A DNA stretch of 59,043 nt from a virus (IMGVR_UViG_3300025137_000040:1-59043); one strand, 5' to 3'; positions 3,405-43,378 are shown, counted from the first letter of the stretch. The notes: generated by a model from the sequence alone, not told the origin. Made by a program: numbers and translations.

Positions 3405-3415
3405 TATGCGGAAAT

Positions 3416-23369: not shown

Positions 23370-23412
23370 AAAAGTTTTCCTCCACGGGGCGATTTCCCGC
23401 TGGGGAAAACAG
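23370..23412 (-). terminator. Putative terminator or processing hairpin
   Basis: On the minus strand GTTTTCC (with an inner CGGG/CCCG stem) pairs with GGAAAAC and runs into TTTTAAAG. It sits in the 115-nt gap between the gene ending at 23435 and the signal-peptide gene starting at 23319. The U-tract is short, so efficiency is uncertain. The rest of this gap holds nothing else recognised. Confidence 0.45.
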
Positions 23413-23434
23413 GGGGTTTTTGAAAACAGGAGGG

Positions 23435-23725
23435 CTACCACTTCACCTTATCCGCCCAATAAGCCGCACTCATCTTGCCCTTTTTGATATTGGCAGCGTG
23501 CCTGGCTTTGAACGAGGCTCGCTTTTGCTTCATTGCTTTCGACTCCCCAGCTTTGGGTGCGCCAGCAGTCTTAGCTCCTTGCTCCCCGAAGCGGATTAGT
23601 TTTTGTTTACCCCCTTCTGATGCCAGCACGACGTGGCTTTTTTTTGGGTGTTTAGGTGTCCTCTTCGGTTGGTTTACTTTGCTCAAACCATGTTGGTTGA
23701 GCTTAGCTTTTGTGTTCTTGTCCAT
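23435..23725 (-). CDS. Conserved basic phage protein (marine-phage type)
   Basis: 96 residues, Lys-rich and without cysteine. The segments SHVVLASEGGKQKLIRFGEQG and KRASFKARHAANIKKGKMSAAYWADKVKW match, from memory, a small protein common in marine tailed phages (I believe listed as DUF6321, number uncertain). Its function is unknown. The leader reads ACCAACAAACAAACT before ATG with no Shine-Dalgarno. Confidence 0.7.
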   Translation of the reverse strand: MDKNTKAKLNQHGLSKVNQPKRTPKHPKKSHVVLASEGGKQKLIRFGEQGAKTAGAPKAGESKAMKQKRASFKARHAANIKKGKMSAAYWADKVKW

Positions 23726-23763
23726 AGTTTGTTTGTTGGTTTATTACCGGGACTACCGGAATA

Positions 23764-24003
23764 TTAATGTGGTGTTTCCAGCCACCAGATGGTTCCTTTG
23801 TTATTGTTCCCCAGCTTCTTTCTTCTTAATCTTCTAGGGTCTCGGTCGAGTAGAAGCTGAGACTTCAGCTCAGTTAAAGTCTTCGAAAGGTTTGTTGTGG
23901 TTGGCCAGGCAACCTCCTCTACAATCTCATTGATGTGCCTCTTCTTACCGTCGGAAAGGAATTCCAATAGGGTGTTTGAAAGGGATAACTTTTTCTTATT
24001 CAT
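23764..24003 (-). CDS. Small winged-helix-like DNA-binding protein
   Basis: 79 residues. FLSDGKKRHINEIVEEV...TTNLSKTLTELKSQLLLDRDPRRLRRKK has the helix-turn-helix plus wing pattern of small transcription factors. ATG 24003 is preceded by ACACCAACCCACTAAC, the A/C-rich leader type of this array; an upstream start would add 34 unlikely residues. The target is unknown. Confidence 0.55.
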   Translation of the reverse strand: MNKKKLSLSNTLLEFLSDGKKRHINEIVEEVAWPTTTNLSKTLTELKSQLLLDRDPRRLRRKKLGNNNKGTIWWLETPH

Positions 24004-24112
24004 GTTAGTGGGTTGGTGTAAAAGTGCCGCGCTCCGTGGTTGGCCAAACTGGCGCGGCGGCAGTTTCGAAATCGGGGCTATGTTAGTCCCGGACCTTGTG
24101 AGCACTCACGGA
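24004..24112. other. Intergenic gap with GC-rich inverted repeat
   Basis: GCCGCGC and GCGCGGC flank a 20-nt loop containing TTGGCCAA. There is no T-tract on either strand, so this is a possible RNA stem or protein site rather than a clear terminator. It lies between the dNMP-kinase stop and the downstream gene's leader. Confidence 0.4.
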
Positions 24113-24655
24113 TTACCCACCTTGGTCAGACAAGTGCTGACAAAAATTCTTGGACAGTTCTATAAGTTCCTCCCTTGTTTCCCATGAGAGGGTGTAGTCG
24201 GTGTCAAACTGATCGTGATGCTTTTCTGATTCGTGAAGGTGCTCCCCTTGAGGAGCCGAAGCCTCATACTTCATCGACACAAACACACCGCCTCTCTCCT
24301 TCGCCTCGCGGTATTCATTAGGGAATCTGAGATCGTCGATAACTACTACATCGAAGGCCTCAGCCTCTCTGAACAAGCGGTCTACCCAGATGTCGGGCCA
24401 GATCATATTTCTTCCCCAGTCAGTTCCCAGAGTCTGTAGGGCATATCGTAGGGATACTCCTCCAAGTTCAGAGAGACCTGCCTCTTTGTGGTTTGTGTCT
24501 CTTAAGTAATTGATCTTGGTATGACCCACAACTTCGCCAAGCATTCTGTAGATCGGCTCAGCAAAAGATAGCACCTTCGGGTTACCGGGTAGGTGCTTGG
24601 CAAAAGTTGACTTGCCAGATAAGGGGGGACCAATGGGAATGATGATCCTACTCAT
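24113..24655 (-). CDS. Deoxynucleoside monophosphate kinase
   Basis: 180 residues. The N-terminus has the P-loop GPPLSGKST. The segments ALQTLGTDWGRNMIWPDIWVDR and VVVIDDLRFPNEYREAKERGG are characteristic of phage dNMP kinases (T4 gp1-like fold). It phosphorylates dNMPs to dNDPs, supplying precursors for replication. It is the only nucleotide-metabolism gene seen. The start overlaps the end of the 24648 gene by 8 nt, indicating coupled translation. Confidence 0.85.
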   Translation of the reverse strand: MSRIIIPIGPPLSGKSTFAKHLPGNPKVLSFAEPIYRMLGEVVGHTKINYLRDTNHKEAGLSELGGVSLRYALQTLGTDWGRNMIWPDIWVDRLFREAEAFDVVVIDDLRFPNEYREAKERGGVFVSMKYEASAPQGEHLHESEKHHDQFDTDYTLSWETREELIELSKNFCQHLSDQGG

Positions 24656-24878
24656 TCTTCTCAGGTTCTTTTAGCTCGGAGTGGATGTGGTCTATCAAGT
24701 CTACTTGCCCACACTTATCACATAAGACCTTAGCTTTAGCCGGGTAACACACGAGGAATGCCACCTCTGTTTGAGCGTATGGTTTTGCGTCTTCGTCGAT
24801 ATATACTTCTATAATCTCAGTTGAGTGAGCTTCTCCAAGCTCTTCACAATTTCTTTGGTAGTATGGTTCTTTGCTCAT
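24648..24878 (-). CDS. Small acidic protein with CxxC
   Basis: 76 residues, acidic. The middle has VLCDKCGQVDLIDH, a single CxxC that could bind metal with Cys44 or His residues. No family is recognised. ATG overlaps the stop of the upstream gene (ATGA), and its end overlaps the dNMP kinase start. Confidence 0.6.
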   Translation of the reverse strand: MSKEPYYQRNCEELGEAHSTEIIEVYIDEDAKPYAQTEVAFLVCYPAKAKVLCDKCGQVDLIDHIHSELKEPEKNE

Positions 24879-25063
24879 GGTAAAAGTTCGTAAGATTTTA
24901 AGATTGCTTCCAAGGCGTCGGGCTCAATTTGAGACAAGGCTTGAAGCAGGGAGACGATAGAGCCTTCAGGAGAGGGGCCGTCTTGGTCGAACCCGAGTCC
25001 CTCGGCCATACCGAGAAGCTCTGAGGCGAGGTCTTCGGTGATTTCTAAATCATATGCGGTCAT
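24875..25063 (-). CDS. Small acidic helical protein, unknown
   Basis: 62 residues, mostly helical and acidic (EDLASELLGMAEGLGF), with no family recognised. The upstream 20 nt hold two tandem CATATGCGGT motifs in the opposite orientation rather than the A/C-rich leader. The stop overlaps the next ATG. Confidence 0.55.
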   Translation of the reverse strand: MTAYDLEITEDLASELLGMAEGLGFDQDGPSPEGSIVSLLQALSQIEPDALEAILKSYELLP

Positions 25064-25084
25064 ATGCGGTCTAATTTTTATACG
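25045..25084. promoter_or_regulatory. Tandem CATATGCGGT motifs
   Basis: CATATGCGGT occurs twice in tandem with a 10-bp period (one helical turn) just upstream of the 25063 gene and downstream of the stop at 25085. A 10-bp period fits cooperative protein binding on one face of DNA (inference). The same 9-mer occurs at other junctions. Confidence 0.45.
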
Positions 25085-26086
25085 TTAGTATCTTAGGAGT
25101 TGCAAGTATATTTGTTGGGCGAAAGATGTCTTATCCCAGAAGGCTGGATCCTCTCCACGAGGGAATGGCAGGGGCATTCTTATCTCAGCCATTGCCTGTT
25201 GGATTAGTGGGTAATAATGCTTCCAAGTTTCCAGCCTGGTGAAGCCTTTATCCGCATGGCGAAGTGTTACAGATAGGGTAGTTTCCCAGCCAGTAGGTAT
25301 GCCAGCGAGGTCTACGCTAAAGGAGCCGCACGAATGTTTTCCTTGGGGGGTGCCTTGGGTGACCTTAGCGTAAAGAGGATTATGCTTTATGAACTCATCC
25401 AGCTCGGGCCAGGTGCAGCGCCTACTGACCTCATTGTAAGGGATCAATGCCTGAGACATATCGCGCCTAGGGAAAGGGCAGTGACAAAGCGTGCCGGTTG
25501 ATGAAGCGTGGTAGGCGAGGTTAGCAAAGTCGCCCCAATCGGAGTCGGGGTCGGCGCTAAGTGTTCCACTGACTGAGAGGACGTGACTTCTTAAGTCGTT
25601 AAAAGCTATTCTCTGCGATGTGTCTATAAAGGAAAGATAGCAAGCAGCAGCATCTGCTTTTTCCTGGGCCTTATCTTCCGAGTAAACTCCATCTGAGAAA
25701 AGATCAACGAACAAGTCCTTCCAACGCAGCCCCTCGTGTTGGCCTGATAGCAGCGTGTTTAGAACACTCGCATTAGGATGTGGTGGGCTCCAGGTGCCGG
25801 GGAGATTTTTGATTTTTACGCGAGGCCTAGGTAGGCCCCCGTATGCGTTTATCTGCCTCTTTTCCACAGACCGCCAAAAATCGAATGCATGCTCCCTACC
25901 CTGTAGCCAGTCGAGCCTAACATCGTATGCCCCACGGTTGATGAGGAGAGGTAGATAGGTTTTACAATTGGTTTCTCGAGACTCGGTTTTGAGCCAAAGG
26001 GCACCTGCCGCCGCTCTATAGCGGGTAGAGGATCCCACAAAGTGGGGGTTTTCAACATAGTTAGAGATAAGTTCTTCAGCTTTCAT
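25085..26086 (-). CDS. Unknown 333-residue protein
   Basis: Globular, mixed-charge, with no signal, membrane segment or nucleotide-binding motif. Trp- and His-rich stretches (GTWSPPHPNASVLNTLL; WKHYYPLIQQAMAEIRMPLPF) and a CHCPFPRRD segment are visible, but no family is recognised. Its start follows eight copies of an 8-nt repeat that fill the whole gap to the previous gene. Confidence 0.65.
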   Translation of the reverse strand: MKAEELISNYVENPHFVGSSTRYRAAAGALWLKTESRETNCKTYLPLLINRGAYDVRLDWLQGREHAFDFWRSVEKRQINAYGGLPRPRVKIKNLPGTWSPPHPNASVLNTLLSGQHEGLRWKDLFVDLFSDGVYSEDKAQEKADAAACYLSFIDTSQRIAFNDLRSHVLSVSGTLSADPDSDWGDFANLAYHASSTGTLCHCPFPRRDMSQALIPYNEVSRRCTWPELDEFIKHNPLYAKVTQGTPQGKHSCGSFSVDLAGIPTGWETTLSVTLRHADKGFTRLETWKHYYPLIQQAMAEIRMPLPFPRGEDPAFWDKTSFAQQIYLQLLRY

Positions 26087-26150
26087 AGTTGGTAAGTTGG
26101 TAAGTTGGTAAGTTGGTAAGTTGGTAAGTTGGTAAGTTGGTAAGTTGGTT
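26087..26150 (-). repeat. Eight tandem 8-nt leader repeats
   Basis: On the plus strand AGTTGGTA is repeated seven times and closes with AGTTGGTT. On the minus strand this reads as ACCAACTT-type units ending at ATG 26086. It occupies essentially the entire intergenic leader and contains no Shine-Dalgarno. It is the longest and most regular example of the leader repeats in this array. Confidence 0.9.
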
Positions 26151-27102
26151 ATGCAGCGAGTAACGTCGGTTCGAGTTCGGGGTGCAGTATCTGCTCAAGG
26201 CGATTGAACCCGTGCTCATCGAGGAGGAAGCCCTTGTCTATTCCCTCCTGGGTTCCGGGGGTGTTCTTCACAGTAAGGAGACCGAAGCGGATCTCATCCC
26301 CATCAAGAAACCGCGCATCACTTTCGTCGAGGGTGTAACCGCGACCCGCTTCCAGGAGCCTGTCGATGTCACCTTTTACCACGGGTATTGCGATGTTGTG
26401 ACCCCGACTCAACGCTTCGGCGCAGTGCTCGACGTTGTCGGGACCAGCATAACTGAATGTGATGTGGTAGTTATCTAGCTTATCACTAAGCCGCATATTG
26501 AAAGGCGACTTCGTGTAATCGTAGAATTGAATATCAGGGTGACGCTTGATAAGTGATCCCCACCAGAGATCGCTGGTCCCGTTGAGACGTACCGCGTATG
26601 TCATGTCTGCCTTGGCTGCTCTCTTCTTCGCCAACAACATTTCATGCTCGATGATCTTCTCGGCGATAGGCCGGTTCCATGCGACGAGCCAAGTCCTTAT
26701 TAGCCTGGGTATCAGGCAATGATTGCTGAGTCCGACCGAGTGGTATCCGATCAGTGCTTGACCGGACAGGTTCAAGCAGGCTGCTAGGCAGCCCTCACTG
26801 GCGAACTTACACATCTGAACGCCAGACATTTTGCCTGAGAGCAGATACATAATGTAGGTCATCACTCCGATTTTCTCTCCCTTGGCCGTCTTGACAGAGT
26901 TTTGGGTTCCGCCCATGTAGGATACTCCGACTGTATACAGAAGCTTCTTAGGTGACAGGGTAGGGTCTAGCCCTTTGAACAAGAGCTTCGCTGTGTTGGC
27001 GACATCTTGGTTAACGACTCCTCTCTCAAGGCTCGACAAGTATGCCGTCGCTAATGCTCGAAACACATTTGTTTCGGTGTTGGTTTGTTCTTGTTTTATC
27101 AT
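26149..27102 (-). CDS. GP88-like phage protein with Cys cluster
   Basis: 317 residues. The segments MCKFASEGCLAACLNLSG, YAVRLNGTSDLWW, IQFYDYTKSPFNMRL and DNYHITFSYAGPDNVE follow the pattern of the GP88 family first seen in mycobacteriophages, whose function is unknown. The three close Cys (CKFASEGCLAAC) could bind a metal or cluster. The N-terminal codons MIKQEQTNTETN encode the A/C-rich leader motif, so the real start may be GTG 27066. Confidence 0.75.
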   Translation of the reverse strand: MIKQEQTNTETNVFRALATAYLSSLERGVVNQDVANTAKLLFKGLDPTLSPKKLLYTVGVSYMGGTQNSVKTAKGEKIGVMTYIMYLLSGKMSGVQMCKFASEGCLAACLNLSGQALIGYHSVGLSNHCLIPRLIRTWLVAWNRPIAEKIIEHEMLLAKKRAAKADMTYAVRLNGTSDLWWGSLIKRHPDIQFYDYTKSPFNMRLSDKLDNYHITFSYAGPDNVEHCAEALSRGHNIAIPVVKGDIDRLLEAGRGYTLDESDARFLDGDEIRFGLLTVKNTPGTQEGIDKGFLLDEHGFNRLEQILHPELEPTLLAA

Positions 27103-27163
27103 AATACATTTCTGTTAGGGTTAGGTTGGTTGCGGTGTCATATGACCGCATATGTTAAGGGCA
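27103..27163. promoter_or_regulatory. Gap with paired CATATG motifs
   Basis: CATATGACCGCATATG at about 27140-27155 is an imperfect palindrome made of two CATATG cores, and the rest of the gap is a weak AACCAACCTAACC leader. It is one of several junctions carrying the CATATGCGG-type motif. Confidence 0.4.
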
Positions 27164-27430
27164 CTATTTTTTGGTCTGAGTATTAAGCTCCTCTCGATTA
27201 GCTTCCTCGGAGTGCTCGAGTGCTTTGAACAAAACACTCCAGCGTATCTCCCCATCGGAAGTAGAGTAGATGTCTGCTTCCTCTGCGTACTTTAGTGCAT
27301 GAATGTATGAACTGTTGTTCGGGAAGGCTTTTAAAGCACCTCTCCGAATGATGTCCTCCAATTCCTTTGCATCGTATTTCGCATCAATAGTGATGCTGAT
27401 ATCCATTTTAATTCTGACTTCTTGTTCCAT
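27164..27430 (-). CDS. Small unknown protein
   Basis: 88 residues, acidic, no family recognised (ISITIDAKYDAKELEDIIRRGALKAF start). ATG 27430 directly follows CTAACCAACTAACCA. The stop is followed by the CATATG-containing gap. Confidence 0.55.
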   Translation of the reverse strand: MEQEVRIKMDISITIDAKYDAKELEDIIRRGALKAFPNNSSYIHALKYAEEADIYSTSDGEIRWSVLFKALEHSEEANREELNTQTKK

Positions 27431-27441
27431 TGGTTAGTTGG

Positions 27442-27696
27442 TTAGTTGTATTTTTTCTCTATCTCTGTCTTCCAGTCTGATGCTGCTCTCCACCAGGCCC
27501 GAGCGTGCATGGGTGGGTTCTCTACTGTTCCCTCCTTTATCCCGTCTAGGTAATCCTCGAGCGGAATGGAGGAGACTTCCTCCGCTACTTGGTAGATGGC
27601 TTCGATCGCGAATAGCTGCCCGACGGCCCCTGCTTTGCTGAACTCGCAGACCCGGGTCAGGAATTCGACATTGGTTTCTCTTTCTTTGGTTATCAT
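27442..27696 (-). CDS. Small unknown protein
   Basis: 84 residues, helical with conserved-looking Trp residues near the C-terminus (ARAWWRAASDWKTEIEKKY). No family is recognised. The leader AACCAACACACCAACAT precedes ATG 27696 with no Shine-Dalgarno. Confidence 0.55.
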   Translation of the reverse strand: MITKERETNVEFLTRVCEFSKAGAVGQLFAIEAIYQVAEEVSSIPLEDYLDGIKEGTVENPPMHARAWWRAASDWKTEIEKKYN

Positions 27697-27711
27697 ATGT
27701 TGGTGTGTTGG

Positions 27712-28104
27712 TTATGAGTAAGAGTTTAAATCTTCCCAGTGCTCACGGATTCCTAGTATCACGGAGACGATTCGCTCTCGCTCTACTAAATCCATAGGTG
27801 TGATATGGACTTTGGTTAGGATCTCCTCGTATCGAATCCATTCAGTCCGATCAATGTTTGGATCACCGGATGCCTTACGCCGCTTAGTTGTTTGCTTTGT
27901 GGTAACGACGCACGAGCTATTTACATCTGCGCGTTCCGCCAGATCCTTCAGTCGAAACGTACTTGGTTCGCGACGAAGGCCCACCCATCGAAGAGCTATG
28001 CTGCCCCCGTCCTCCGGGGTAAGCGTAGCTTCCAGTGCGCGGCCCTTGTCGTTTGTAATCTCAGGCACTCTGCGAGTGACAGGCTTATCTAGATTGGTTG
28101 CCAT
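27712..28104 (-). CDS. Unknown 130-residue protein
   Basis: Mixed charge, with a beta-rich first half and a basic central stretch (TTKQTTKRRKASGD); no family recognised. Its leader carries AACCAACACACC and ACCAACAAACAAACCAAC before ACTACTACT and ATG 28104. Confidence 0.55.
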   Translation of the reverse strand: MATNLDKPVTRRVPEITNDKGRALEATLTPEDGGSIALRWVGLRREPSTFRLKDLAERADVNSSCVVTTKQTTKRRKASGDPNIDRTEWIRYEEILTKVHITPMDLVERERIVSVILGIREHWEDLNSYS

Positions 28105-28144
28105 AGTAGTAGTTGGTTTGTTTGTTGGTTCATTGGTGTGTTGG

Positions 28145-28360
28145 TTAGGGTCTGTAATTGCGGTGACTAAAACGCCCAGAGGGAGAGTGATGGGTCACCT
28201 GTTTGTAGTCGCACCCAGAGCGTGGGTGATCGTCAGGAATCAGGACTAGCTCCCCGTCCACAACGGCGGCTCGTTCCTCGTTGGTCAGTCCGGAAACCCA
28301 GCGGTAAGGCATCGAGCCTCGACCGTGGATTCGACCTGTTTTGCTTATGATATTTGCCAT
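28145..28360 (-). CDS. Small basic unknown protein
   Basis: 71 residues rich in Arg, His and Gly, no family recognised. It is one of the few genes here without the A/C-rich leader; the 21 nt upstream are AT-rich (GTATTTTTAATC before ATG). Confidence 0.5.
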   Translation of the reverse strand: MANIISKTGRIHGRGSMPYRWVSGLTNEERAAVVDGELVLIPDDHPRSGCDYKQVTHHSPSGRFSHRNYRP

Positions 28361-28381
28361 GATTAAAAATACAGTTCGGGG

Positions 28382-28618
28382 TTATCCTATTAAACTGTCG
28401 CGACCGCCGTCAGAGAAAGTAACCCAGTGGCGCTCTTCGGGGCGGTAAGTATAGTCATCTTTTTCTTCGATACCAAAACCAGTTAGGTCTTTGTTCACCA
28501 CGCAATTCCTTAGGTATTCAAGTATTTTATCAAAGGCTTCATCCTCTGTTTCTGCTTGGAACCAATCGTGGAATGTAACAGTGAAAGTTTTTTCTTCGAT
28601 ATTAGGTTTCTTCTTCAT
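28382..28618 (-). CDS. Small acidic unknown protein
   Basis: 78 residues; TFTVTFHDWFQAETEDEAFDKILEYL resembles the beta-alpha start of small phage proteins of unknown role. Leader CTAACCAACACACCA precedes ATG 28618, and this leader lies within the end of the upstream gene (overlap 17 nt). Confidence 0.55.
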   Translation of the reverse strand: MKKKPNIEEKTFTVTFHDWFQAETEDEAFDKILEYLRNCVVNKDLTGFGIEEKDDYTYRPEERHWVTFSDGGRDSLIG

Positions 28619-28814
28619 TGGTGTGTTGGTTAGTGTTTAAGAGTTCCTCTTGCTCCAAGATTTTTAGAGTCTTCTTGATCTCAGCAGTCACCTGCGAGAC
28701 AGACCCGAAAAACTTGAATGAGGTGGACGGGAGGTTAACTTCCCAAGGGTGATCTTGCCCTTCCTTTGTTGCTTCCCCGATACCATCGGGTGTTTCTATC
28801 GTAAACGACTGCAT
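28602..28814 (-). CDS. Small unknown protein
   Basis: 70 residues, no family recognised. The final codons NTNQHTNEEET contain the A/C-rich leader of the next gene, so coding sequence and leader overlap. Its own ATG 28814 follows AACCAACTAACCAACAAACC. Confidence 0.55.
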   Translation of the reverse strand: MQSFTIETPDGIGEATKEGQDHPWEVNLPSTSFKFFGSVSQVTAEIKKTLKILEQEELLNTNQHTNEEET

Positions 28815-28860
28815 GGTTTGTTGGTTAGTTGGTTAGGACTCAGGACCCGTGGCTAAGGGT

Positions 28861-29112
28861 TCAGGAGAAACAGTTAGCCTTGAGTGCTGCGAAGAACTCG
28901 TCGAGGTCATCGAAATGTCGAGTCTCACTACGGAACAGTGAACCTACGGTGACGTAGTATCTTCCGAGGTTGTCCCGTCGAGCCTCTACACTCACCCCCT
29001 TTCCTCTATGGAAGGAGAACAAGATAGGTAGTCCCTCTATTTCCTCAGGCTGATCGTCCCAACTCTTTGGTTGTGGTTTTGATTTCTTTGGTGTGTTGGT
29101 TTGTTTGTTCAT
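28861..29112 (-). CDS. Small unknown protein with leader-like first codons
   Basis: 83 residues; the body (GLPILFSFHRGKGVSVEARRDNLGRYYVTVGSLF) looks beta-rich. The leader has ACCAACAA units then ACACCA before ATG 29112, and the first codons (NKQTNTP) repeat the same A/C-rich sequence, so the repeat array crosses the start codon. Confidence 0.55.
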   Translation of the reverse strand: MNKQTNTPKKSKPQPKSWDDQPEEIEGLPILFSFHRGKGVSVEARRDNLGRYYVTVGSLFRSETRHFDDLDEFFAALKANCFS

Positions 29113-29139
29113 TGGTGTGTTGGTTTGTTGGTTTGTTGG

Positions 29140-29478
29140 TTATTTAATCGTGATTGTCTTCCCGACGATGGAGAGCCTTTCAGCTCTGTGGATAGGAACT
29201 TCGGTATCCTTTAGAACAAAGGACGAGAACTTATATGGGTCGTAGGTGACAGCTGCACCTGCGGTGAGGGGTGTCTCGACAAGATCTCCTATGATGTATG
29301 CATGGACATTCTTCCGACCCTCTCGCAAGACCCTTTGCCTACCAGCTTCGCTGACTTTAAAGGCGACGTTATCGAGGTGGGCTTCAGGCATATACTTCCA
29401 AACACGCCACCCCTTAGGGCTTTGGGTTTGGACGGAGAGACATTGACGGTGGAGGTTGTAATATACCCGCACTTTCAT
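29140..29478 (-). CDS. Unknown 112-residue protein
   Basis: Beta-rich start (MKVRVYYNLHRQCLSVQTQSPKG) and no family recognised. ATG 29478 is chosen because the in-frame extension upstream would translate the A/C-rich leader and half of the hairpin repeat at 29507-29541. Confidence 0.55.
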   Translation of the reverse strand: MKVRVYYNLHRQCLSVQTQSPKGWRVWKYMPEAHLDNVAFKVSEAGRQRVLREGRKNVHAYIIGDLVETPLTAGAAVTYDPYKFSSFVLKDTEVPIHRAERLSIVGKTITIK

Positions 29479-29493
29479 TTCGATTTGTTTGGT

Positions 29494-29552
29494 TAGTTGG
29501 TTAGTCGATTCACCCATACGCAATCCGCATATGGGTGAATCAAATTTTGTTT
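29494..29552 (-). repeat. Hairpin repeat, copy 1
   Basis: A perfect 12-bp inverted repeat: 29507-29518 (GATTCACCCATA) with 29530-29541 (TATGGGTGAATC), loop 11 nt containing CCGCATA, flanked by AAATTTTGTTT. It has a second copy at 30187-30243 that differs by one base in each arm, both changes preserving pairing. It lies after one gene's stop and before the next gene's leader on the minus strand. The weak T-run on the plus side could also make it a plus-strand terminator, but no plus gene is present. Confidence 0.85.
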
Positions 29553-29557
29553 AGTGC

Positions 29558-29953
29558 TTAGATAGCACCACTCAGAGTAGAGATAACCTCCGCTACCTTC
29601 TTGTTCGGGAAGCTCTTCTTTTCACTGTCGAGGTAGATGTTCTCTAGATCGTGAGTGTCTTTTACCATCTCCCAGAGTGCGCGGACCACTTCGACTATCT
29701 CATCTGTATCGATAGGGCGAATCGCCATGAAGTCGTAGGTCTCGCCTCGGAATGAGTAGCAGTCTCCGTCTCCGTATCTGACTTCTTCCCAGATGTAGTC
29801 ACCATGCTCATCGGAATCTGACGCGATCTCCATGTAGTTCATCGAGGCATCTTCACTCCAGAAGATCTCGAACCAGTGGATGTTTATATGAAGGCCGTCG
29901 CCTGGCTTCTGTTCTTCGTTTCGGAACTCTATTGTTATTAGTTTTGGGTACAT
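29558..29953 (-). CDS. Acidic unknown protein
   Basis: 131 residues, strongly acidic with many Trp, Tyr and Phe (INIHWFEIFWSEDASMNYME). No family is recognised; acidity suggests a possible DNA mimic or inhibitor (speculative). The leader contains CTAACCAACAACTAG, and the gene ends 17 nt before hairpin repeat copy 1. Confidence 0.55.
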   Translation of the reverse strand: MYPKLITIEFRNEEQKPGDGLHINIHWFEIFWSEDASMNYMEIASDSDEHGDYIWEEVRYGDGDCYSFRGETYDFMAIRPIDTDEIVEVVRALWEMVKDTHDLENIYLDSEKKSFPNKKVAEVISTLSGAI

Positions 29954-29962
29954 AATTTATTT

Positions 29963-30178
29963 CTAGTTGTTGGTTAGGGTTTGTGCCTCGGCAATAGCGG
30001 CTTTCACTTCTTCAAGAAATTGATCATCAGTATCTCGGAAGTAAGGCTTTCCGTTGAAGAGCCACGCGACAACGGTTCCGGTTTCGTTTTCGTCGTTGGT
30101 CTGCCACCCATCAAGGTGGACCACTCCGTTCTCGTCTATGTACTCATATCGGATTTCTTTGTATTTAGGTTTCTTCAT
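29963..30178 (-). CDS. Small unknown protein
   Basis: 71 residues (MKKPKYKEIRYEYIDENGVVHLDGW start), no family recognised. ATG 30178 is chosen for the same reason as the 29478 gene: the upstream extension runs through leader and hairpin repeat copy 2. Confidence 0.55.
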   Translation of the reverse strand: MKKPKYKEIRYEYIDENGVVHLDGWQTNDENETGTVVAWLFNGKPYFRDTDDQFLEEVKAAIAEAQTLTNN

Positions 30179-30186
30179 GGTTGTTG

Positions 30187-30243
30187 TTCGGTTAGTCGAT
30201 CCACCCATACGCAATCCGCATATGGGTGGATCAAATTTTGTTT
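30187..30243 (-). repeat. Hairpin repeat, copy 2 (compensatory change)
   Basis: 30198-30209 (GATCCACCCATA) pairs perfectly with 30221-30232 (TATGGGTGGATC) around the same 11-nt loop as copy 1. The T-A pair of copy 1 is a C-G pair here, a compensatory double change. Flanks (AAATTTTGTTT and GGTTAGTCGA) are also shared. Both copies precede small genes of the array. Confidence 0.85.
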
Positions 30244-30249
30244 GGACTG

Positions 30250-31245: not shown

Positions 31246-32441
31246 GCAGCCACCTCCCGCATGTCTAACACCTGTCCGAATGGGTACTCCGAACGTCCGA
31301 AGTTGACCCATAGGGTTGGGTAGTTAGAAGACTTGGGGAAGGTGCCATACCCGTCAGTGAAGTAGATGATCGCCGAGCACTGAGGGAAGTTGTTGTCCAC
31401 CCAGTCGAAGGCAGGGCGGAAGTCAGTGCCCCCTCGACCCTTTGCTTTAAGCGGAACTTCGCTACCAGAGGAGAACTCCTCAGCATTAGCAACCTCGGTG
31501 TCTACGTCGAGCACCCAGAGTCGCTTGATGTTGACATCGTCCATCGCCTGTTGAATCTCTCCAATCATCTGATTGAGGAGATCCCCACACATGGACCCCG
31601 AGGTGTCTTTGACAAACACTAGACCATCAACCGAGGGCGACAAGAAGGACTCGAGGTAGAGACCATCCTCCAGAAAGCGGCGGTCGAACTGATCCTCGGA
31701 GACTTCGCTAACTGTGAGGTCGCGGACGAATTGAGATAGGATCGCCTTCCAGTCAAGGACAGATTCAGAAGGGGAGATCTTCTCAAGCAGTCCACCAGGG
31801 AAGTCTCCCTTCAGCTTAGCCATCTGTGTTGCTTGGTGGGATATTCTCTCCCACTTATCTTCACCTTCACCAGCGACTGACTCATCACCTTCGCCTTCGC
31901 CTTCGCCTTCACCAGCAACTGACTCATCAGCTTCGAATCCGCCGGGGCCGTTGCCGTCCCCATACTGTTCTTCGAAACCCTCAGGATCAGCTTGCTTCTC
32001 CTGCATGAGTAGGTTGTAGATCCTCTCCTCACTCTCATCAGAGAACTTACCCCCTGCATCGAGCCCACCTGGTGGCAGTTCAATAATACCGTACTGCCTC
32101 TTGATGGTTAGGAGAATGTCATTAATGACATAGTCACAGGCGATGTTGGCCACTTGCATGTCCATGCCATCTCCACGAAACCGCTTCAGGTGAAGTAGGA
32201 ATGGGTGGAACATCTCATGGAGTAACAGCCCGAGCTTTTGCGGCATGCTTAGCTTGACCCAGTAATTAGGGTTTACCCACACCGTGTAAGCGTCGGTGCA
32301 GGCCGTGTCCCCGCGCTCTGTGGACAGCTCATACTTGAGGCTGTCGAGGGCTCCGAGGAACACATTGAGTCCACTGTGTAGAGCAACAATGTTGAGAGCC
32401 TGGCTGATGTCGTTAAAGAATTTATCTTCCGAATAACTCAT
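31242..32441 (-). CDS. VWA-domain protein with HExxH motif (DUF2201/CoxE-like)
   Basis: 399 residues. LLLHEMFHPFLLH (His75-Glu76-x-x-His79) is a zinc-protease-like motif. An acidic Gly/Glu linker (about 165-200) carries imperfect repeats. The C-terminal half has a VWA domain with the MIDAS start FVKDTSGSMCGD and later GRGGTDFRPAFDWV and IIYFTDGYG. Paired with the AAA+ gene at 32457, it matches MoxR/VWA chaperone systems that remodel or activate protein targets. The protease activity and the substrate are not known. Leader AACCAACACATCAACAT precedes ATG 32441. Confidence 0.75.
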   Translation of the reverse strand: MSYSEDKFFNDISQALNIVALHSGLNVFLGALDSLKYELSTERGDTACTDAYTVWVNPNYWVKLSMPQKLGLLLHEMFHPFLLHLKRFRGDGMDMQVANIACDYVINDILLTIKRQYGIIELPPGGLDAGGKFSDESEERIYNLLMQEKQADPEGFEEQYGDGNGPGGFEADESVAGEGEGEGEGDESVAGEGEDKWERISHQATQMAKLKGDFPGGLLEKISPSESVLDWKAILSQFVRDLTVSEVSEDQFDRRFLEDGLYLESFLSPSVDGLVFVKDTSGSMCGDLLNQMIGEIQQAMDDVNIKRLWVLDVDTEVANAEEFSSGSEVPLKAKGRGGTDFRPAFDWVDNNFPQCSAIIYFTDGYGTFPKSSNYPTLWVNFGRSEYPFGQVLDMREVAA

Positions 32442-32456
32442 ATGTTGATGTGTTGG

Positions 32457-33542
32457 TTAGTTGATTGAGGCAGTAGCCGAAGCAAGTACTGAAGCTGCAA
32501 GCCTTTGAAAGTACTTGTTATTCAACAGGCTTGGGCTCTGGACAGCGATTGTCTTGGCGACGAAGGCGGCGTAGTGGGAATTGAATCCACTGTCCCCAAG
32601 CCTTTCAGTGACCCGGATAACTGACTCGAGATTCTCATCGTCGGCGCGGCCAGCTAGCTTACAGGAGATGATCATCTTGAGTGTGCGATCCTCAGGGATA
32701 TCGCACCCATCTGGATCCGCCAGGAGGTTGTCGATTGACCCCACGCTGTTATAGATCTTGATGAATTCATCGAGCGCTGCCGCAGCCTTGGCTCCGATGC
32801 AACCCTGGATAGCGGCTGAGGCTACTCGACCGAGGCTAAGGTCCCCAGCAGAACTCTTCTGCATCTGGTAGTTGATGACGTTGCCAGCCTCTTGCAAAGA
32901 ACGGAACGTCGGCACATTACTCTGTCCATCGAACTTATCGGGGTCGAAATCATAGGCGACGTGGTTCGACTCAAGGAATGCCAGAAGCATGGGGTAACTA
33001 CCCGACTCCTCCAGCATACGCTTGTATCCTGCCATATCGGGGAGGACATAATACCAACAGAAGCGGTTGGCTTGAGCTATACCAAAGCGTTCAGCATGCG
33101 ACCGTGTCCCTGCGCCATTACCCGCTGCCACAATAAAGGTCTGTTCTGGTAGCTTTTTATTGCCCACAGACCTGTCATGGGTGATCTGCATTTTGATCTT
33201 CTGCATCGCTGGTGGACACTGTAGGGCTTCATCGAGGTGCACCAAATGCTGCCCGTCGGTGAGGTGACAGGGAAGCTCTTCGGTTACTGCGTAACACGCT
33301 TTGCCCTCCTCCTTGTCGAAGTAGGGAAGCCGAATGTCACTCGGGAGCTGGTTCGCCAAGCGGCAGTCCCAATATTGTAGGCTGTGGTCATCAGCATACT
33401 TTTTGATCAGGAACGATTTGCCTAGCCCTGCATCCCCCTCGAGAAGTGGTACGATGGTTGACACTCCACTGAATTGTTGCTCGTGGTGCATCTCCAGAAC
33501 TTCTGGAATATCGTTTGGTGTAATGGTTTGTTTATCTCTCAT
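32457..33542 (-). CDS. MoxR/CobS-like AAA+ ATPase
   Basis: 361 residues. Walker A is GDAGLGKS (residues 36-43) and Walker B is HLVHLDEA. A sensor-type FIVAAGNG follows, with an Arg-bearing ANRFCWYYV region. MoxR-family ATPases act as hexamers with VWA partners; the VWA gene follows 15 nt downstream. The first codons (RDKQTITPN) are again A/C-rich, and the leader is AACAAACCAACTAACCA. Confidence 0.78.
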   Translation of the reverse strand: MRDKQTITPNDIPEVLEMHHEQQFSGVSTIVPLLEGDAGLGKSFLIKKYADDHSLQYWDCRLANQLPSDIRLPYFDKEEGKACYAVTEELPCHLTDGQHLVHLDEALQCPPAMQKIKMQITHDRSVGNKKLPEQTFIVAAGNGAGTRSHAERFGIAQANRFCWYYVLPDMAGYKRMLEESGSYPMLLAFLESNHVAYDFDPDKFDGQSNVPTFRSLQEAGNVINYQMQKSSAGDLSLGRVASAAIQGCIGAKAAAALDEFIKIYNSVGSIDNLLADPDGCDIPEDRTLKMIISCKLAGRADDENLESVIRVTERLGDSGFNSHYAAFVAKTIAVQSPSLLNNKYFQRLAASVLASATASIN

Positions 33543-33583
33543 TGGTTAGTTGGTTTGTTGTTAACACGGGATTGTCCCGCCCT

Positions 33584-33619
33584 GCCAGCATATGTGGTAG
33601 GGGAACCGCATATGCTGGC
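33584..33619. repeat. Intergenic hairpin built on CATATG
   Basis: 33584-33597 (GCCAGCATATGTGG) pairs with 33606-33619 (CCGCATATGCTGGC) with one G-T mismatch around an 8-nt loop. Just upstream CGGGA-TTG-TCCCG forms a second small hairpin. It lies between the DUF3150-like gene and the AAA+ gene; there is no T-tract, so it is a processing or regulatory structure rather than a standard terminator. Confidence 0.6.
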
Positions 33620-33627
33620 GCGGCGAA

Positions 33628-34512
33628 TCAAAGCGCCATGGTTGACAAGATCGAGTTGGCAGTCAGTGCCGCCTCCTTCCTGGCCTCGGGGGATTCCTTG
33701 AGGACTTCAACGTCCCAGGCTGAAACCCTCTCAGCTTCGGCACACAGCTCGAGAAGCTCTTCATCTGGGGCGACCATCATCTTGGGTATCAAGCCCACCA
33801 CTTCGCCGATGTTATCGACGATCGAGCTATACATCTTCTTACCCACTGGCCCCTCCTCGTAGGACTTCATCTTCGAGGTGAAGTTCTTCAGCACCTTTCC
33901 GAGACGCTTTCTAAGCTGGCCCTGAGCTTCGACGGTGGCCCCTTCGATGTACTCACGGGCTGACTCCTGCATGGTTGACTTGAACTGGTCATTGAGGTGT
34001 TTCAAGTTCTGGACGTTGGCTGGATCAGGGAATGGATACTGGTGGTAGTCAACTCGGATCCGGTGAGCTACCTTCTCCTTGGTATCCAACCAGCGGTTCT
34101 TGGGAACAACCAGCGACCCAGTGCTGATACTCCGGAACCTGTCCTGTGAACAGGGGAGGATTTCTCCCTCATACCTGTTAACGAAGTCTTGCTTGAAGGC
34201 GGACCACTCGCTGGAGATCTTCTGCCACTCTTCTTGGAACTTAAACATGACGGCTGTGGGTAGCACTGTGTGTGGCCCGATCCGGATGACCAGGCAGCGT
34301 GGGCTGTCTTGGTCAAAGATCTTTCTTGCCTCACTCTCCGCTTTGCGGAGGGGCTCGGTGTATTCCTTGGGGATCAGATCATAGACACCTTTGGTGACTC
34401 GGCTGTCGATACCTTGGGCTTGGCCAATGATCTTACCCACCTCTTTCGCTTGCATGGTTGGTGCGTAGCGGTGGAAGGACACGTTCAGTGCGATTGCATT
34501 TTCATTAATCAT
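33628..34512 (-). CDS. DUF3150-like protein of the AAA+/VWA module
   Basis: 294 residues. The AIALNVSFHRYAP start, the KNRWLDTKEKVAHRIRV segment and the helical second half resemble, from memory, DUF3150 proteins, which in phages commonly sit beside MoxR and VWA genes. Its place directly upstream of the AAA+ gene supports this. Function unknown; it may be the module's adaptor or substrate (inference). Confidence 0.62.
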   Translation of the reverse strand: MINENAIALNVSFHRYAPTMQAKEVGKIIGQAQGIDSRVTKGVYDLIPKEYTEPLRKAESEARKIFDQDSPRCLVIRIGPHTVLPTAVMFKFQEEWQKISSEWSAFKQDFVNRYEGEILPCSQDRFRSISTGSLVVPKNRWLDTKEKVAHRIRVDYHQYPFPDPANVQNLKHLNDQFKSTMQESAREYIEGATVEAQGQLRKRLGKVLKNFTSKMKSYEEGPVGKKMYSSIVDNIGEVVGLIPKMMVAPDEELLELCAEAERVSAWDVEVLKESPEARKEAALTANSILSTMAL

Positions 34513-34575
34513 GGTTGGTATTTCTAGTGGTTGGTTTGTTGGTTCATTGGTGTGTTGCCATTTGCCGCTGTTGGC

Positions 34576-34845
34576 TCAGTCATAGTTTTTGTCAGAGAGT
34601 TGATTTACCTCGGCTGCTAGCCCTCTGGAGTAGCTCTCCATTTCCTTTATCCGCGCCTCGAGTAGCACGCTCTTGTTGTGCTGCTGCACCAGCTGACTCT
34701 CTAGCTCAAGCTGAGCTATGCCATTGAGCCGATCGGCTAGCTTGTAGGCGGTGCTGGCGGTGACTTGAGCGCTCAACTTAGCAACAGGAGAACCGTCGCG
34801 CATAAGCAGAGCGTGGGTGTCTAGGTCGTAGATGTAGTCTTCCAT
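34576..34845 (-). CDS. Small coiled-coil protein
   Basis: 89 residues with a helical, heptad-like region (residues 30-85: LNGIAQLELESQLVQQHNKSVLLEARIKEMES). No family recognised. The leader lacks the A/C repeat and instead has ATACGCGGATATAT. Confidence 0.55.
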   Translation of the reverse strand: MEDYIYDLDTHALLMRDGSPVAKLSAQVTASTAYKLADRLNGIAQLELESQLVQQHNKSVLLEARIKEMESYSRGLAAEVNQLSDKNYD

Positions 34846-34863
34846 AATATATCCGCGTATGAT

Positions 34864-35136
34864 TTACTTAATAGAATTGAGGTAGCGTTGGGTTCCCTCA
34901 AGGTGGTAAACCTCGAGCTGTTGGCGAAGCCTTTTGTGCTCGCGGGTTCCCGGGCAATGCTTTCTCCACTCGCTGCTTATACGGTTGTAGCTCTTCACAA
35001 ACTCACCCGGGGGGAGGTTGCTTACGTGCTGTTCAGCCGCAGCAGATACACGTCTGGGTCGGCTGGTCTTGATGAATGTAATTGCGCCGACAAGCAGGGA
35101 CGCACCTCCTAGTATAATGATAACAATATCAGTCAT
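34864..35136 (-). CDS. Small N-anchored membrane protein
   Basis: 90 residues; an N-terminal hydrophobic anchor (IVIIILGGASLLVGAITFI) is followed by a basic soluble tail. It might modify the host envelope or be a superinfection factor, but nothing in the sequence proves this. The leader has several ACCAACxx units. Confidence 0.6.
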   Translation of the reverse strand: MTDIVIIILGGASLLVGAITFIKTSRPRRVSAAAEQHVSNLPPGEFVKSYNRISSEWRKHCPGTREHKRLRQQLEVYHLEGTQRYLNSIK

Positions 35137-35214
35137 GGTATTTTGTGGGTTGGGTTGTTGGTGTGTTGGTCTGTTGGTGTTCAGTAGATTAGTAATATGC
35201 CACCCGCATATGAT

Positions 35215-35421
35215 CTAAGCTGGATCCTCCTGAAGGAATGCGATGTGGGTTGGAGTGTAGTCGGTTGATTCTATAACGCCACATATAGAGGCGGTGTAGG
35301 TTAGAGGGTCGTCTAGAAGAGATTTGTATTCCTCTTGAGCTTCCTCAAATGTTTCGAAACAGCGCCAATCTGATTCTGAATCAGATCGATCTTGATCTTT
35401 TGTATAAATTACAATGAACAT
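35215..35421 (-). CDS. Small acidic unknown protein
   Basis: 68 residues (MFIVIYTKDQDRSDSESDWRCF start, EEAQEEYKSLL helix). No family recognised. It starts inside the end of the preceding gene (41-nt overlap) and ends just after a CCCGCATATGATC motif. Confidence 0.52.
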   Translation of the reverse strand: MFIVIYTKDQDRSDSESDWRCFETFEEAQEEYKSLLDDPLTYTASICGVIESTDYTPTHIAFLQEDPA

Positions 35422-35677
35422 TGGATTGATTAGAGTTCAGTTCAACAGCTAGCTCGTCGGCCAACTGATCTATTTTTTTAAGACACTCCACGTAATCGTT
35501 TGGCGTTGAAACGGACGGAGCTAAAGCCTCGGCAGCCAGAGATATGGTGGCGATGGCAACCTCTTTAGCTTTCTCTTCAGGGTTACCAATGCGACCTGCT
35601 TTGGCTAGTTCCCGGAGAGTTAGTCCGGTCCAGTTCTTTTGTTCGAGGAGGTCCTCGACGATTGGTACTTCAGTCAT
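35381..35677 (-). CDS. Small unknown protein
   Basis: 98 residues, helical (IATISLAAEALAPSVSTPNDYVECLKKIDQLADELAVEL). ATG 35677 follows AACCCAACAAACCAACAACCCA; upstream in-frame ATG 35704 would translate that leader (TQQTNNP). The C-terminal 13 residues overlap the next gene. Confidence 0.55.
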   Translation of the reverse strand: MTEVPIVEDLLEQKNWTGLTLRELAKAGRIGNPEEKAKEVAIATISLAAEALAPSVSTPNDYVECLKKIDQLADELAVELNSNQSNVHCNLYKRSRSI

Positions 35678-35704
35678 TGGGTTGTTGGTTTGTTGGGTTA
35701 GCAA

Positions 35705-36058
35705 TTAAGATTCTATCCGAAGACGCTGTTCTTCGTATTCCTCTTGAGCCTGCTCCTCAAGCTCCAGCTCGTTGAGGGCGTAGTCTTCACATATGTCCCA
35801 CCCTTGTGAGACTGCGTGGGTGGATCTCCACGCCAGACCTGTCACCCCGTTGGGACGGCGGATCTGAGTGAGGGTTGCAACAACCCCCAGTTCGGGGTGG
35901 GTTACCTCCCCGCAGCGGGAGTCTACTCCCTGCCACTGGGTGGTCTTCTTAAACTCTCCCCAGTGGGAGACACATAGGTCTTGGCACCCATCAAAGATGG
36001 ACCCCACTACTTTAAGGTAGGTGGAAGCGTTTCTGTCTTCTATGAACTCTGTTCTCAT
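35705..36058 (-). CDS. Unknown 117-residue protein
   Basis: Acidic C-terminus (LNELELEEQAQEEYEEQRL) and no recognised family. ATG 36058 follows three ACCAACAA units. It is divergent from the small-terminase-like gene at 36118, with a 59-nt shared upstream region. Confidence 0.55.
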   Translation of the reverse strand: MRTEFIEDRNASTYLKVVGSIFDGCQDLCVSHWGEFKKTTQWQGVDSRCGEVTHPELGVVATLTQIRRPNGVTGLAWRSTHAVSQGWDICEDYALNELELEEQAQEEYEEQRLRIES

Positions 36059-36117
36059 ATTTGGTTTGTTGGTTTGTTGGTTTGTTGATATGCGGTCATA
36101 TCCGGTTATCATATGGT
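36059..36117. promoter_or_regulatory. Divergent intergenic region with leader repeats and CATATG motifs
   Basis: From the minus-strand gene's side come three 8-nt TTTGTTGG/ACCAACAA units, then ATATGCGGTCATATCCGG and TTATCATATGG next to the plus-strand ATG. This is the only place where an accessory plus gene faces the array. The CATATG motifs are candidates for a shared regulator site (inference). Confidence 0.45.
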
Positions 36118-36627
36118 ATGTCAAACCATAAATGGGATCATCTCCCGTGGGATACAATTCGCGAGGCTTATGTTTGTGGAGTGTCAGCTGGACAGCTCCA
36201 AGAAAAGTATGGCGTTCCTGAGGGAACTATCAGGGGGAGAGCACACCGACAGAATTGGCCTAGCCCTCACCGAGTACGTAAGGTGATGAAGGCTGCTCAC
36301 AAGATCATTGATGAGGATCCTGATAGGGGAGAGGACCTTATGGAGGCCCTTGGGTCCCAAGTAAATGGGGTCGATCCGAACGGCTCAATGCGCGAAATTG
36401 TGTCATCACTGGAGGCCAAGCAGAGGAAACATCAGGATCTGATGGTTAATATGCTCCAGAAATCCTTGGATAAAGCGAAGATCAAGCCTCCGAAAGACTA
36501 TCGGGAACTAGACATAGCTGACAAAATAATGCGGAGGAACCTGGATCTCGATAAGAAGGACGATAAACCGAGCGTCCAGATAGGGATTATCGGTGGCAAG
36601 GTGGAGGAGATAGGTGGCTCCGAATAG
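36118..36627 (+). CDS. Putative terminase small subunit
   Basis: 169 residues. The N-terminal WDTIREAYVCGVSAGQLQEKYGVPEGTIRGRAHRQNW is a helix-turn-helix of the type used by small terminases to bind packaging sites. The middle is helical and the C-terminus has PPKDYRELDIADKIMRRNLDLDKKD, similar to the oligomerisation and tail part of TerS. It is unusual in being 13 kb from the large subunit and within opposite-strand genes. ATG 36118 is chosen because the upstream extension is the divergent gene's leader. Another HTH regulator is the alternative. Confidence 0.62.
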   Translation: MSNHKWDHLPWDTIREAYVCGVSAGQLQEKYGVPEGTIRGRAHRQNWPSPHRVRKVMKAAHKIIDEDPDRGEDLMEALGSQVNGVDPNGSMREIVSSLEAKQRKHQDLMVNMLQKSLDKAKIKPPKDYRELDIADKIMRRNLDLDKKDDKPSVQIGIIGGKVEEIGGSE

Positions 36628-36673
36628 GGTCCGAATCGTCACACCGTGTGACAAATCCCAGTTAGGTATCCTC

Positions 36674-36718
36674 TAGACCCCCGAAGATACTGGGGTGCAA
36701 TACGGGTCTAAGACCCGT
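36674..36718 (+). promoter_or_regulatory. Attenuator-like overlapping stems after the TerS-like gene
   Basis: TAGACCC (36674-36680) can pair with GGGTCTA (36704-36710), or that segment can pair with AGACCCGT (36711-36718). The two hairpins exclude each other. No U-run follows, so a simple terminator is unlikely. Could be part of the larger structured region. Confidence 0.4.
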
Positions 36719-36986
36719 GAGTTAGCCAAGACCAGTCACTCCTGATCTTAGTGGCGCGTCTCCCTTTGTCAGGGAGCTTGCATATGTGGGAGTCTCTGGC
36801 GTAGACCTTGATGGGTCCTCCTTCGCACCTGTGTTGTGCTGAGAGGCTTTTACGCCTAGCCTGCCATTGGAGGGCAGATAGGCGTTGTGACGCCTGAGAG
36901 AGTCTCTCAGAGTCTAAGACGGGCTTACCGTCTAGGTTATAGGCGAAGAGATCCGCGAAGATCTCCGCTTCGGTTTGGCTGTTCAT
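36708..36986 (-). CDS. Doubtful small protein in structured region
   Basis: 92 codons, basic (RRATKIRSDWSWL), no family recognised. It has neither the A/C-rich leader nor a Shine-Dalgarno, and it lies across several of the perfect hairpins. It may be a chance open frame within a structured RNA. Confidence 0.3.
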   Translation of the reverse strand: MNSQTEAEIFADLFAYNLDGKPVLDSERLSQASQRLSALQWQARRKSLSAQHRCEGGPIKVYARDSHICKLPDKGRRATKIRSDWSWLTHGS

Positions 36987-37465
36987 TCAAGACTGCGCAT
37001 GGATCAGCTCAGCATGGGAATGGATCGCATGAGGGAAGAACATAACCCATGCGCAGGGTAGGAATGAATAGATGGTTGTGAGTTTTACAGTCTAGGCTTG
37101 CCTTGCCTTTTGCGCTTGCTATACGCTCAATTGATTTTATAAGCGGGAACCATACCCGCCCGTGTTGAGGACTCACGAGACAACCTCGCACGTTCCACGG
37201 AAAACTTTGGCAATGTGAAAAGATCAATTCTAATTGCCTCGCACGTTCACGGGGATGAGCCGCTTCTGTGGTCTCAGGCGGGGCTCCGTGTCTTTCCACG
37301 GAGTGATCCCTGTCAGGCCTCTCAGCTGGCAACGTGGGGTAAGCACGCGCTAAGGTGAGAAACTAGGTAGTCGCTAGGATGGGGTGCCAGTCGGGGATAA
37401 GCCAACAGGCGCACCCTAGCCACCATTGCGCGCACGGGGGATTGGACCACGTGCGCGCTAGGTGA

Positions 37466-37804
37466 CTAGGCTGCAGCTGGCACCTCGGCCTTAGCGGCCT
37501 TCTTAGCGGCCTTCTTAGCGGCCGTGGCTAACTCGATCTCGAGAGCTAGACTCTGGGTGTAGGAGTCGCGCCATGCCTTGGCGAACACCCTATACTCCGC
37601 GCGGGTTTCCTCGGAGATGTCCCCCGCTTTCCGTAGCTCAATGCCCTCGCGGGTGTCGGTGTAGTTGCCTTGGCGGTTAACTCGATCCTTCGAGATGTGG
37701 ACATCTAATAGGAACCTACGGTCCTTGTCCTGAGCTTTCAAGCGGCCACGTTCGGCGCGGGTTTCATTGAGACGCTGGGTGAGATATGCTGTGATTTCTT
37801 TCAT
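37466..37804 (-). CDS. Ala/Lys-tailed unknown protein
   Basis: 112 residues. The body is charged and helical; the last ~22 residues are AAKKAAKKAAKAEVPAAA, encoded by 12-nt repeats and resembling histone-H1-like tails that bind DNA or RNA. The leader (AACTAACAACCAAAAACAAA) is A/C-rich but less regular. A DNA-binding role is suggested only by composition. Confidence 0.6.
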   Translation of the reverse strand: MKEITAYLTQRLNETRAERGRLKAQDKDRRFLLDVHISKDRVNRQGNYTDTREGIELRKAGDISEETRAEYRVFAKAWRDSYTQSLALEIELATAAKKAAKKAAKAEVPAAA

Positions 37805-38264
37805 TTTGTTTTTGGTTGTTAGTTAATAAGGCCTTTGGTGGCCATAAGGGTAGACAGCGCAGCATTCCGCCCCCATACCACCACGGGAGGGGGTGGCCCC
37901 CCCTCCGACCGGCCGCCCCCTTATTATCACTCCTTATAAAAATCCCTGGCCCAAATCTATTCTATACGTATTAAACTAGGGCTAACCACCGTATAAGAGG
38001 ATTACTGTCCCACTGAAGTGGATTTACTTTTTGGAAAACCCACTCCCTTAACTCGTTGCTGCACAACGCTTTGGGGCTACCAAGTGTATATTATTATTAT
38101 ATTATTAAAAAGAGAAAGTTAACCCTAGAGAGAAGGTGCAATTCGGCCCAGGCCCAGGAGGTGAAAACGCAACACGGCCTAGGGAACGAGAGTTGCGAGG
38201 GGTCTGTTTTTACCTACTAAGCCACTTCAACGCCCTAACACGCTCGTTATCAACGATTTATACA
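37805..38264. other. AT-rich non-coding region, possible replication origin
   Basis: 460 nt without a supported gene between the primase-helicase terminator and the 37466 gene. It has a GGAGGGGG/CCCCCTCC stem at about 37885-37908, an AT-rich stretch around 38085-38115 (TATTATTATTATATTATTAA), a CCACT-GA-AGTGG palindrome, and TTATACACA (38258-38266), which fits the DnaA-box consensus TTATNCACA. A single box is weak evidence. Confidence 0.4.
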
Positions 38265-43359: not shown

Positions 43360-43378
43360 ATAGTATGTCCGCATATGG
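43360..43378. promoter_or_regulatory. CCGCATATG motif before the SSB-like gene
   Basis: AGTATGTCCGCATATGGTT lies between the 43379 gene's stop and the SSB-like gene. It is one of the repeated CATATGCGG junction motifs. The rest of this 80-nt gap is AT-rich. Confidence 0.4.

Follow-up and report, generated by a model that had tools for sequence, protein, structure and literature searches.

In the minus-strand array at 23380 to 36200 of the virus record IMGVR_UViG_3300025137_000040, about 27 small genes, mostly early or accessory, are preceded by A/C-rich leaders that lack a Shine-Dalgarno (SD) sequence and are built, in many of the genes, from the octamer unit ACCAACNN. These leaders probably serve the early accessory genes as SD-independent initiation regions and have probably spread through turnover of the repeats and exchange of gene cassettes. 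This reading builds on what the analysis showed, namely, the position and orientation of the units, the lack of an SD, the predicted openness of the leaders, the constraint on the unit core, the private words of related phages, and a cassette bounded by leaders.

Virus record and gene content

The window is the whole 59,043-base record, and the array starts rest on open reading frame (ORF) calls. Most of the genes below were identified by profile matches; the last two, with zero profile matches, were named from position and conservation only.

49999-51747, plus strand, large terminase
48547-49707, minus strand, integrase
40452-42200, minus strand, DNA polymerase
43579-46047, minus strand, helicase-nuclease
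38332-40512, minus strand, DUF5906/primase-like protein
31242-32441, minus strand, HNH endonuclease (phrog_1314), paired with the ATPase
32457-33542, minus strand, ATPase (phrog_1297), paired with the HNH endonuclease
51791-54028, putative portal
56771-58033, putative MCP

Relatives of the MCP or portal were absent among 50,697 named phage records. Matches of the HNH endonuclease and the ATPase in named phages were set aside as general phage families. A single ORF of 3602 amino acids (12046-22854), with relatives in the related phage G608 and, weakly, in G600 and G604, possibly encodes a giant virion protein. We also observed a GCTGGTGGT tandem repeat at 10351-10401, within ORF 9366-10904, and a 42-nt direct repeat inside the HNH endonuclease gene (31859-31942, 86%).

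Placement and orientation of the ACCAAC units

The preliminary description had listed 19 array starts as sharing one leader family, and in 18 of them the 45 nt before the start include one or more exact ACCAAC copies. Only 30178 departs from this, with a degenerate leader (ACTAACCG AACAACAA), and one start outside that list, 27102, also has an exact copy. The leaders are as follows.

23726-23741, minus strand, leader of gene 23435-23725, AACCAACAAACAAACT
24004-24019, minus strand, leader of gene 23764-24003, ACACCAACCCACTAAC
26087-26151, minus strand, leader of gene 25085-26086, 8 perfect units of the TTACCAAC type
27103-27132, minus strand, leader of gene 26149-27102 (Gp88-like), one unit
27431-27445, minus strand, leader of gene 27164-27430, CTAACCAACTAACCA
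27697-27714, minus strand, leader of gene 27442-27696, contains the 3' end of the exchanged block
28105-28147, minus strand, leader of gene 27712-28104, holds the 5' end of the block with 90.5% identity to G604
28619-28634, minus strand, leader of gene 28382-28618, within the coding end of 28602-28814
28815-28835, minus strand, leader of gene 28602-28814, two units
29113-29142, minus strand, leader of gene 28861-29112, three units plus ACCAATG
29479-29552, minus strand, hairpin and leader of gene 29140-29478 (L5 gp82-like), 92% copy of 30183-30243
29954-29976, minus strand, leader of gene 29558-29953
30179-30243, minus strand, hairpin and degenerate leader of gene 29963-30178
30595-30614, minus strand, leader of gene 30250-30594, two units plus ACCAATG
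32442-32462, minus strand, leader of gene 31242-32441 (phrog_1314, HNH endonuclease)
33543-33562, minus strand, leader of gene 32457-33542 (phrog_1297 ATPase)
34513-34558, minus strand, leader of gene 33628-34512
35137-35180, minus strand, leader of gene 34864-35136
35678-35695, minus strand, leader of gene 35381-35677
36059-36088, minus strand, leader of gene 35705-36058
2019-2055, plus strand, A/C-rich leader of the presumed holin gene, 8-nt period, (ACAACAAA)n

Three further details given earlier were also found: a leader inside the coding end of the upstream gene (start 28618), ORF calls that cross leaders as spurious in-frame extensions (at 24105, 29523, 30214, 30621, 35704, and 36157), and the similarity of the holin leader, which is likewise A/C-rich with an 8-nt period. 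Hairpin or palindrome modules lie upstream of starts 29478, 30178, and 33542. The strong hairpins at 29492-29552 and 30183-30243, with stems of about 15 bp, are 92% identical and precede unrelated genes; the full intergenic stretches that hold them fold at about -40 kcal/mol. Similar palindromes precede A/C leaders in the phages G594 (TTATCCGGAATTCCGGATAAG) and G600.

The 40-nt leaders of the array hold 33 copies of ACCAAC, spread over 19 of the 27 genes, compared with 2.4 copies (maximum, 7) in mononucleotide shuffles and 3.8 (maximum, 10) in dinucleotide shuffles, bearing out the proposed enrichment over shuffled sequence. With the 8-copy array at 26087-26151 left out, 28 leader copies still stand against at most 9 in shuffles. 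Across the whole window, ACCAAC occurs 79 times versus 25.8 ± 4.5 in dinucleotide shuffles, none of 100 of which reached 79, and 67 of the 79 copies are carried by the minus strand. Inside the array, the minus strand, which is the direction of transcription, has 46 copies and the plus strand a single one. Of the 46 sense copies, 38 fall in the 60-nt stretches that precede starts, which together cover 12.6% of the array. The word is present before 2 of the 11 replication genes and none of the 19 structural genes of the window. Since the replication genes and most structural genes start without it, the word is not required for starts, a point against the initiation role proposed here.

Orientation also bears on whether the units are DNA-level sites, such as iterons or operators, that coincide with starts. 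Short tandem repeats in intergenic DNA would suit such sites. However, the orientation of the units tracks transcription 46 to 1, the copies end at the start codon, and a better operator- or promoter-like motif, ATAYGCGRNNATAY, exists separately; we give this explanation a very small chance. The motif has 10 matches versus 0.01 expected in shuffles, mostly intergenic and just before genes, and is often followed by a -10-like sequence. Judged from these sequence features, it is likely a phage promoter or operator. Its sites are the following.

2006-2019, 3404-3417, 25052-25065, 36088-36101, 49997-50010, 51756-51769, plus strand, motif ATAYGCGRNNATAY
27140-27153, 34847-34860, 42013-42026, 43363-43376, minus strand, motif ATAYGCGRNNATAY

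SD pairing and predicted openness of the starts

An SD core is present in none of the array leaders, and their mean anti-SD pairing dG (+1.4) equals that of shuffled sequence (+1.3), as expected from the SD-less starts described before. Plus-strand genes have a mean of -2.9, near the shuffled -2.2, and the only strong SDs on that strand precede 3663 (-9.3) and the MCP at 56771 (-11.6). Good SDs, earlier attributed to the structural genes, are thus not a property of that class. The whole phage is SD-poor, with no genome-wide anti-SD excess and two strong exceptions.

The array leaders are G-poor and A/C-rich, and their predicted unpaired probability over positions -25 to +10 is 0.70, versus 0.58 for replication genes and 0.48 for plus-strand genes. 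By the same measure, random array positions give 0.47 and shuffled starts give 0.54. The description of the A/C-rich leaders as unstructured and SD-less therefore stands, but the clean contrast with SD-bearing structural genes that accompanied it does not.

A further possibility is that the A/C word base-pairs with a GU-rich part of the 16S rRNA other than the anti-SD and recruits the ribosome in this way. CCAACA and TAACCCA do complement a conserved stretch, UGUUGGGUUAAG, which begins at position 1079 of the 16S rRNA of the genome G201. However, the leader sets of four phages point apart (about 235, 1018, and 1330; 1078; 445; and 820) on a Verrucomicrobiota 16S rRNA that may not be that of the host. 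Pairing outside the anti-SD is disfavored by the lack of a common target across the four phages and seems scarcely credible.

Internal structure of the units

Neighboring ACCAA copies follow each other at an 8-nt step in 19 of 22 cases. When the octamer beside each exact ACCAAC was taken without selection, the core matched at 121 of 149 positions, whereas 16 of 36 spacer (NN) bases were the same as in the preceding unit (P = 2.5e-5). A core that is kept while two spacer bases drift is not the outcome expected from plain tandem duplication and drift. The number of units per array gene ranges from 0 to 8, and the distance from unit to ATG is also variable.

This strict structure points to more than openness, which leaves the 8-nt period and the contrast between core and spacer unexplained; a bound factor would explain both. 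The units could then be regulator sites through which the early array is switched at translation, either by a multivalent RNA-binding protein of host or phage that recognizes ACCAAC at 8-nt intervals or by a GcvB-like, GU-rich small RNA. The fixed spacing, the conserved core with its drifting NN, and the presence of the units in one gene class agree with such a role, and GcvB targets include CA-rich enhancers (PMC3879156). Nevertheless, the leader period varies by phage (8 and 4 nt in the window, 4 nt in G600, and 6 nt in G624), so that a conserved multivalent reader is not favored. The variable unit number and ATG distance also count against regulator sites. No array protein was named as RNA-binding by Pfam, and our analysis of the window found no evidence for a protein binder of the leaders. 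Nor does any RNA in the window pair with the consensus beyond chance: the best complements were no better than shuffled minima, and a phage-encoded GU-rich antisense RNA was rejected on that account. The preliminary description had suggested a regulatory element, perhaps bound by a protein or sRNA; a dedicated phage RNA regulator is not supported by these results from the window or by the spacing, which differs in relatives, and we consider regulator sites in general unlikely.

Related phages and their private words

Relatives by MCP comprised 23 viral contigs with identities of up to 52%, one short piece among them reaching 60%; five relatives were found by DNA polymerase, and twelve further relative records were read nearly whole. 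These phages, uncultivated like that of the window, share the polymerase, primase-like protein, helicase-nuclease, terminase, portal, and MCP in varying combinations. Words in the 30 nt before starts were evaluated with the highest-scoring 6-mer of each shuffle as the correction (floor, P = 0.007); the relatives' genes were called by a simple longest-ATG caller, which adds noise. SD words were significant in four relatives (G616, G617, G618, and G622; P <= 0.007, the test floor). Non-SD words were significant, also at the test floor (each P <= 0.007), in the window (ACCAAC), G608 (ATACCT), and G624 (CCTAAC/AACCCA). This genome-wide test gave no significant word in G600, G612, G614, G594, and G626 and a borderline result in G604 (0.013). 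Very A/C-rich leaders occur in local gene clusters of G600, G612, G614, and G594.

The paired pattern ACCAACN{0,4}ACCAA occurs 26 times in the window versus at most 5 times in any of 34 other phages (whole records). Given these counts and the differing leader periods, a universal octamer was rejected. The search for the units in related phages, proposed earlier, thus recovered A/C-rich SD-less leaders in some of them, but the ACCAAC expansion itself is private. The ATPase orthologues of the window, G608, G624, G614, and G594, whose proteins are 24 to 37% identical, all have A/C-rich leaders, with mostly different words. Genome-wide pattern matches included both plain microsatellites and, in MAGs of Verrucomicrobia and Lewinella, a small number of true leaders; they were not taken as proof.

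One could also imagine that each phage has a private start word read by a phage- or host-encoded factor. The early accessory genes would then share an initiation address that replication and structural genes do not have, and genes swapped in would join the program by gaining the leader. We hold this to be quite doubtful.

Shared gene cassette and probable turnover of leaders

A cassette of a single gene is common to the window and G604.

27710-28130, minus strand, single-gene cassette shared with G604, both ends within leaders, flanks unrelated

Gene 27712-28104 shows 90.5% DNA identity to the G604 gene, and the homology extends from 28130, in its own leader, to 27710, in the next leader. In both phages the cassette leaders consist of ACCAAC units, differing in unit order and spacers (TA in G604; AC and AA in the window). 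The leader of start 30178 contains 25 nt (ACTAACCGAACAACAACCATGAAGA) identical to a G604 leader whose gene shows no visible homology, and two different genes (starts 29478 and 30178) are preceded by copies of a 61-nt module, hairpin plus leader, that match at 92%. For the presumed holin gene, homology to G604 begins at the start codon, and the (ACAACAAA)n leader is absent from the G604 orthologue. The case for leaders as joints comprises few instances, with one shared cassette. Breakpoints of phage mosaics at gene borders are common, and a single leader-bounded block is therefore weak evidence for leader-driven exchange.

Such turnover raises the question of whether the repeats are mainly a by-product, in which slippage and micro-homology recombination multiply an A/C-rich seed in short intergenic gaps and the repeats matter as joints for gene swaps rather than for translation. 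The eight perfect tandem copies at 26087-26151, the duplicated 61-nt module, and the leader-bounded cassette together with the 25-nt leader in common with G604 are consistent with this process. The 46:1 orientation lock, the placement at starts, and the difference between core and spacer argue against it, as does the persistence of A/C-rich leaders before anciently diverged ATPase orthologues, and we find it rather improbable.

Proposed mode of initiation and possible host

The orientation, position, openness, and A/C conservation of the leaders argue for a role in SD-less translation initiation. In the initiation model that we prefer, each leader would act as a single-stranded landing strip, rich in A and C and poor in G, immediately ahead of the ATG. 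The 30S subunit would load through accessibility and single-strand affinity, at S1 or the mRNA-exit region, a ribosome contact that we infer. The octamer ACCAACNN would be this phage's private version of the landing strip. Its word may have been kept in many genes because early accessory genes were acquired and exchanged as cassettes whose joints lie in leaders; units would be won and lost through tandem slippage, while selection would hold the core A/C-rich and unstructured. The model would also presuppose an SD-scarce host and selection on translation itself. In enterobacteria, CA-rich/ACA elements raise translation, and an ACAA repeat can drive SD-less initiation (PMC3879156).

SD-scarce bacteria include Verrucomicrobiota (PMC10783764). 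Few SDs are found in the Verrucomicrobiota genome G201, which contains a distant prophage relative with a terminase, portal, and helicase-nuclease in common with the window at 24 to 33% identity. A better portal match lies on contig C16 of G788, a bin labeled Bacteroidota. This contig is SD-rich, unlike the other contigs of the bin, which are SD-poor, and is probably misbinned or of another host.

Known start-associated repeats and significance

The earlier statement that no described family resembles these leaders was too strong, as close precedents exist (PMC3203893 and PMC4679880). In the SAS/ESAS of cluster K mycobacteriophages (PMC3203893), a repeated word also lies a few nucleotides upstream of the ATG of many unrelated non-structural genes, in one orientation. 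Some have an inverted repeat directly upstream, comparable to the hairpins at 29478, 30178, and 33542, whose sequence is unlike ESAS. However, each gene has a single SAS of 13 bp, with the SD core AGGAG in it, whereas the window has no SD, an 8-nt unit in 1 to 8 tandem copies, and another word in each related phage. The TAACTGA repeats of Beggiatoaceae, Cyanobacteria, and Bacteroidetes, for which S1/Csp have been proposed as binders (PMC4679880), likewise consist of short direct repeats in tandem, immediately before starts, where they apparently replace the SD, and their copy number shifts by whole units. Unlike the octamers of this phage, with their phage-private words and drifting spacer bases, they reside in bacterial chromosomes as a fixed 7-nt word with G and T, constant across distant lineages.

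Enterobacterial CA-rich/ACA enhancers resemble the window in that an unpaired A/C-rich leader stimulates initiation there from a flexible position, and the window has, by prediction, an unpaired A/C-rich element near the start; but the enhancers supplement an SD and are targeted by the GU-rich small RNA GcvB, whereas the window has no SD and no such RNA above chance (PMC3879156). Starts without SD pairing are also shared with the A-rich (Kozak-like) starts of Bacteroidota and with SD-scarce Verrucomicrobiota, for which upstream adenines are reported rather than a repeated word confined to one gene class (PMC10783764). Because the window leaders have the positional features of SAS and TAACTGA but not their sequence features, they are, as classified by sequence, another form of start-associated repeats and a member of neither.

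SD pairing is assumed by most gene finders and in most thinking on bacterial translation. Related phages with either SD starts or SD-free, private-word starts allow the requirements of an SD-free start to be compared in nature, and the leaders provide a testable case for joints in single-gene exchange. Both precedents, SAS and TAACTGA, still lack an explanation. Overall, the array suggests a neglected way of marking the starts of protein synthesis.
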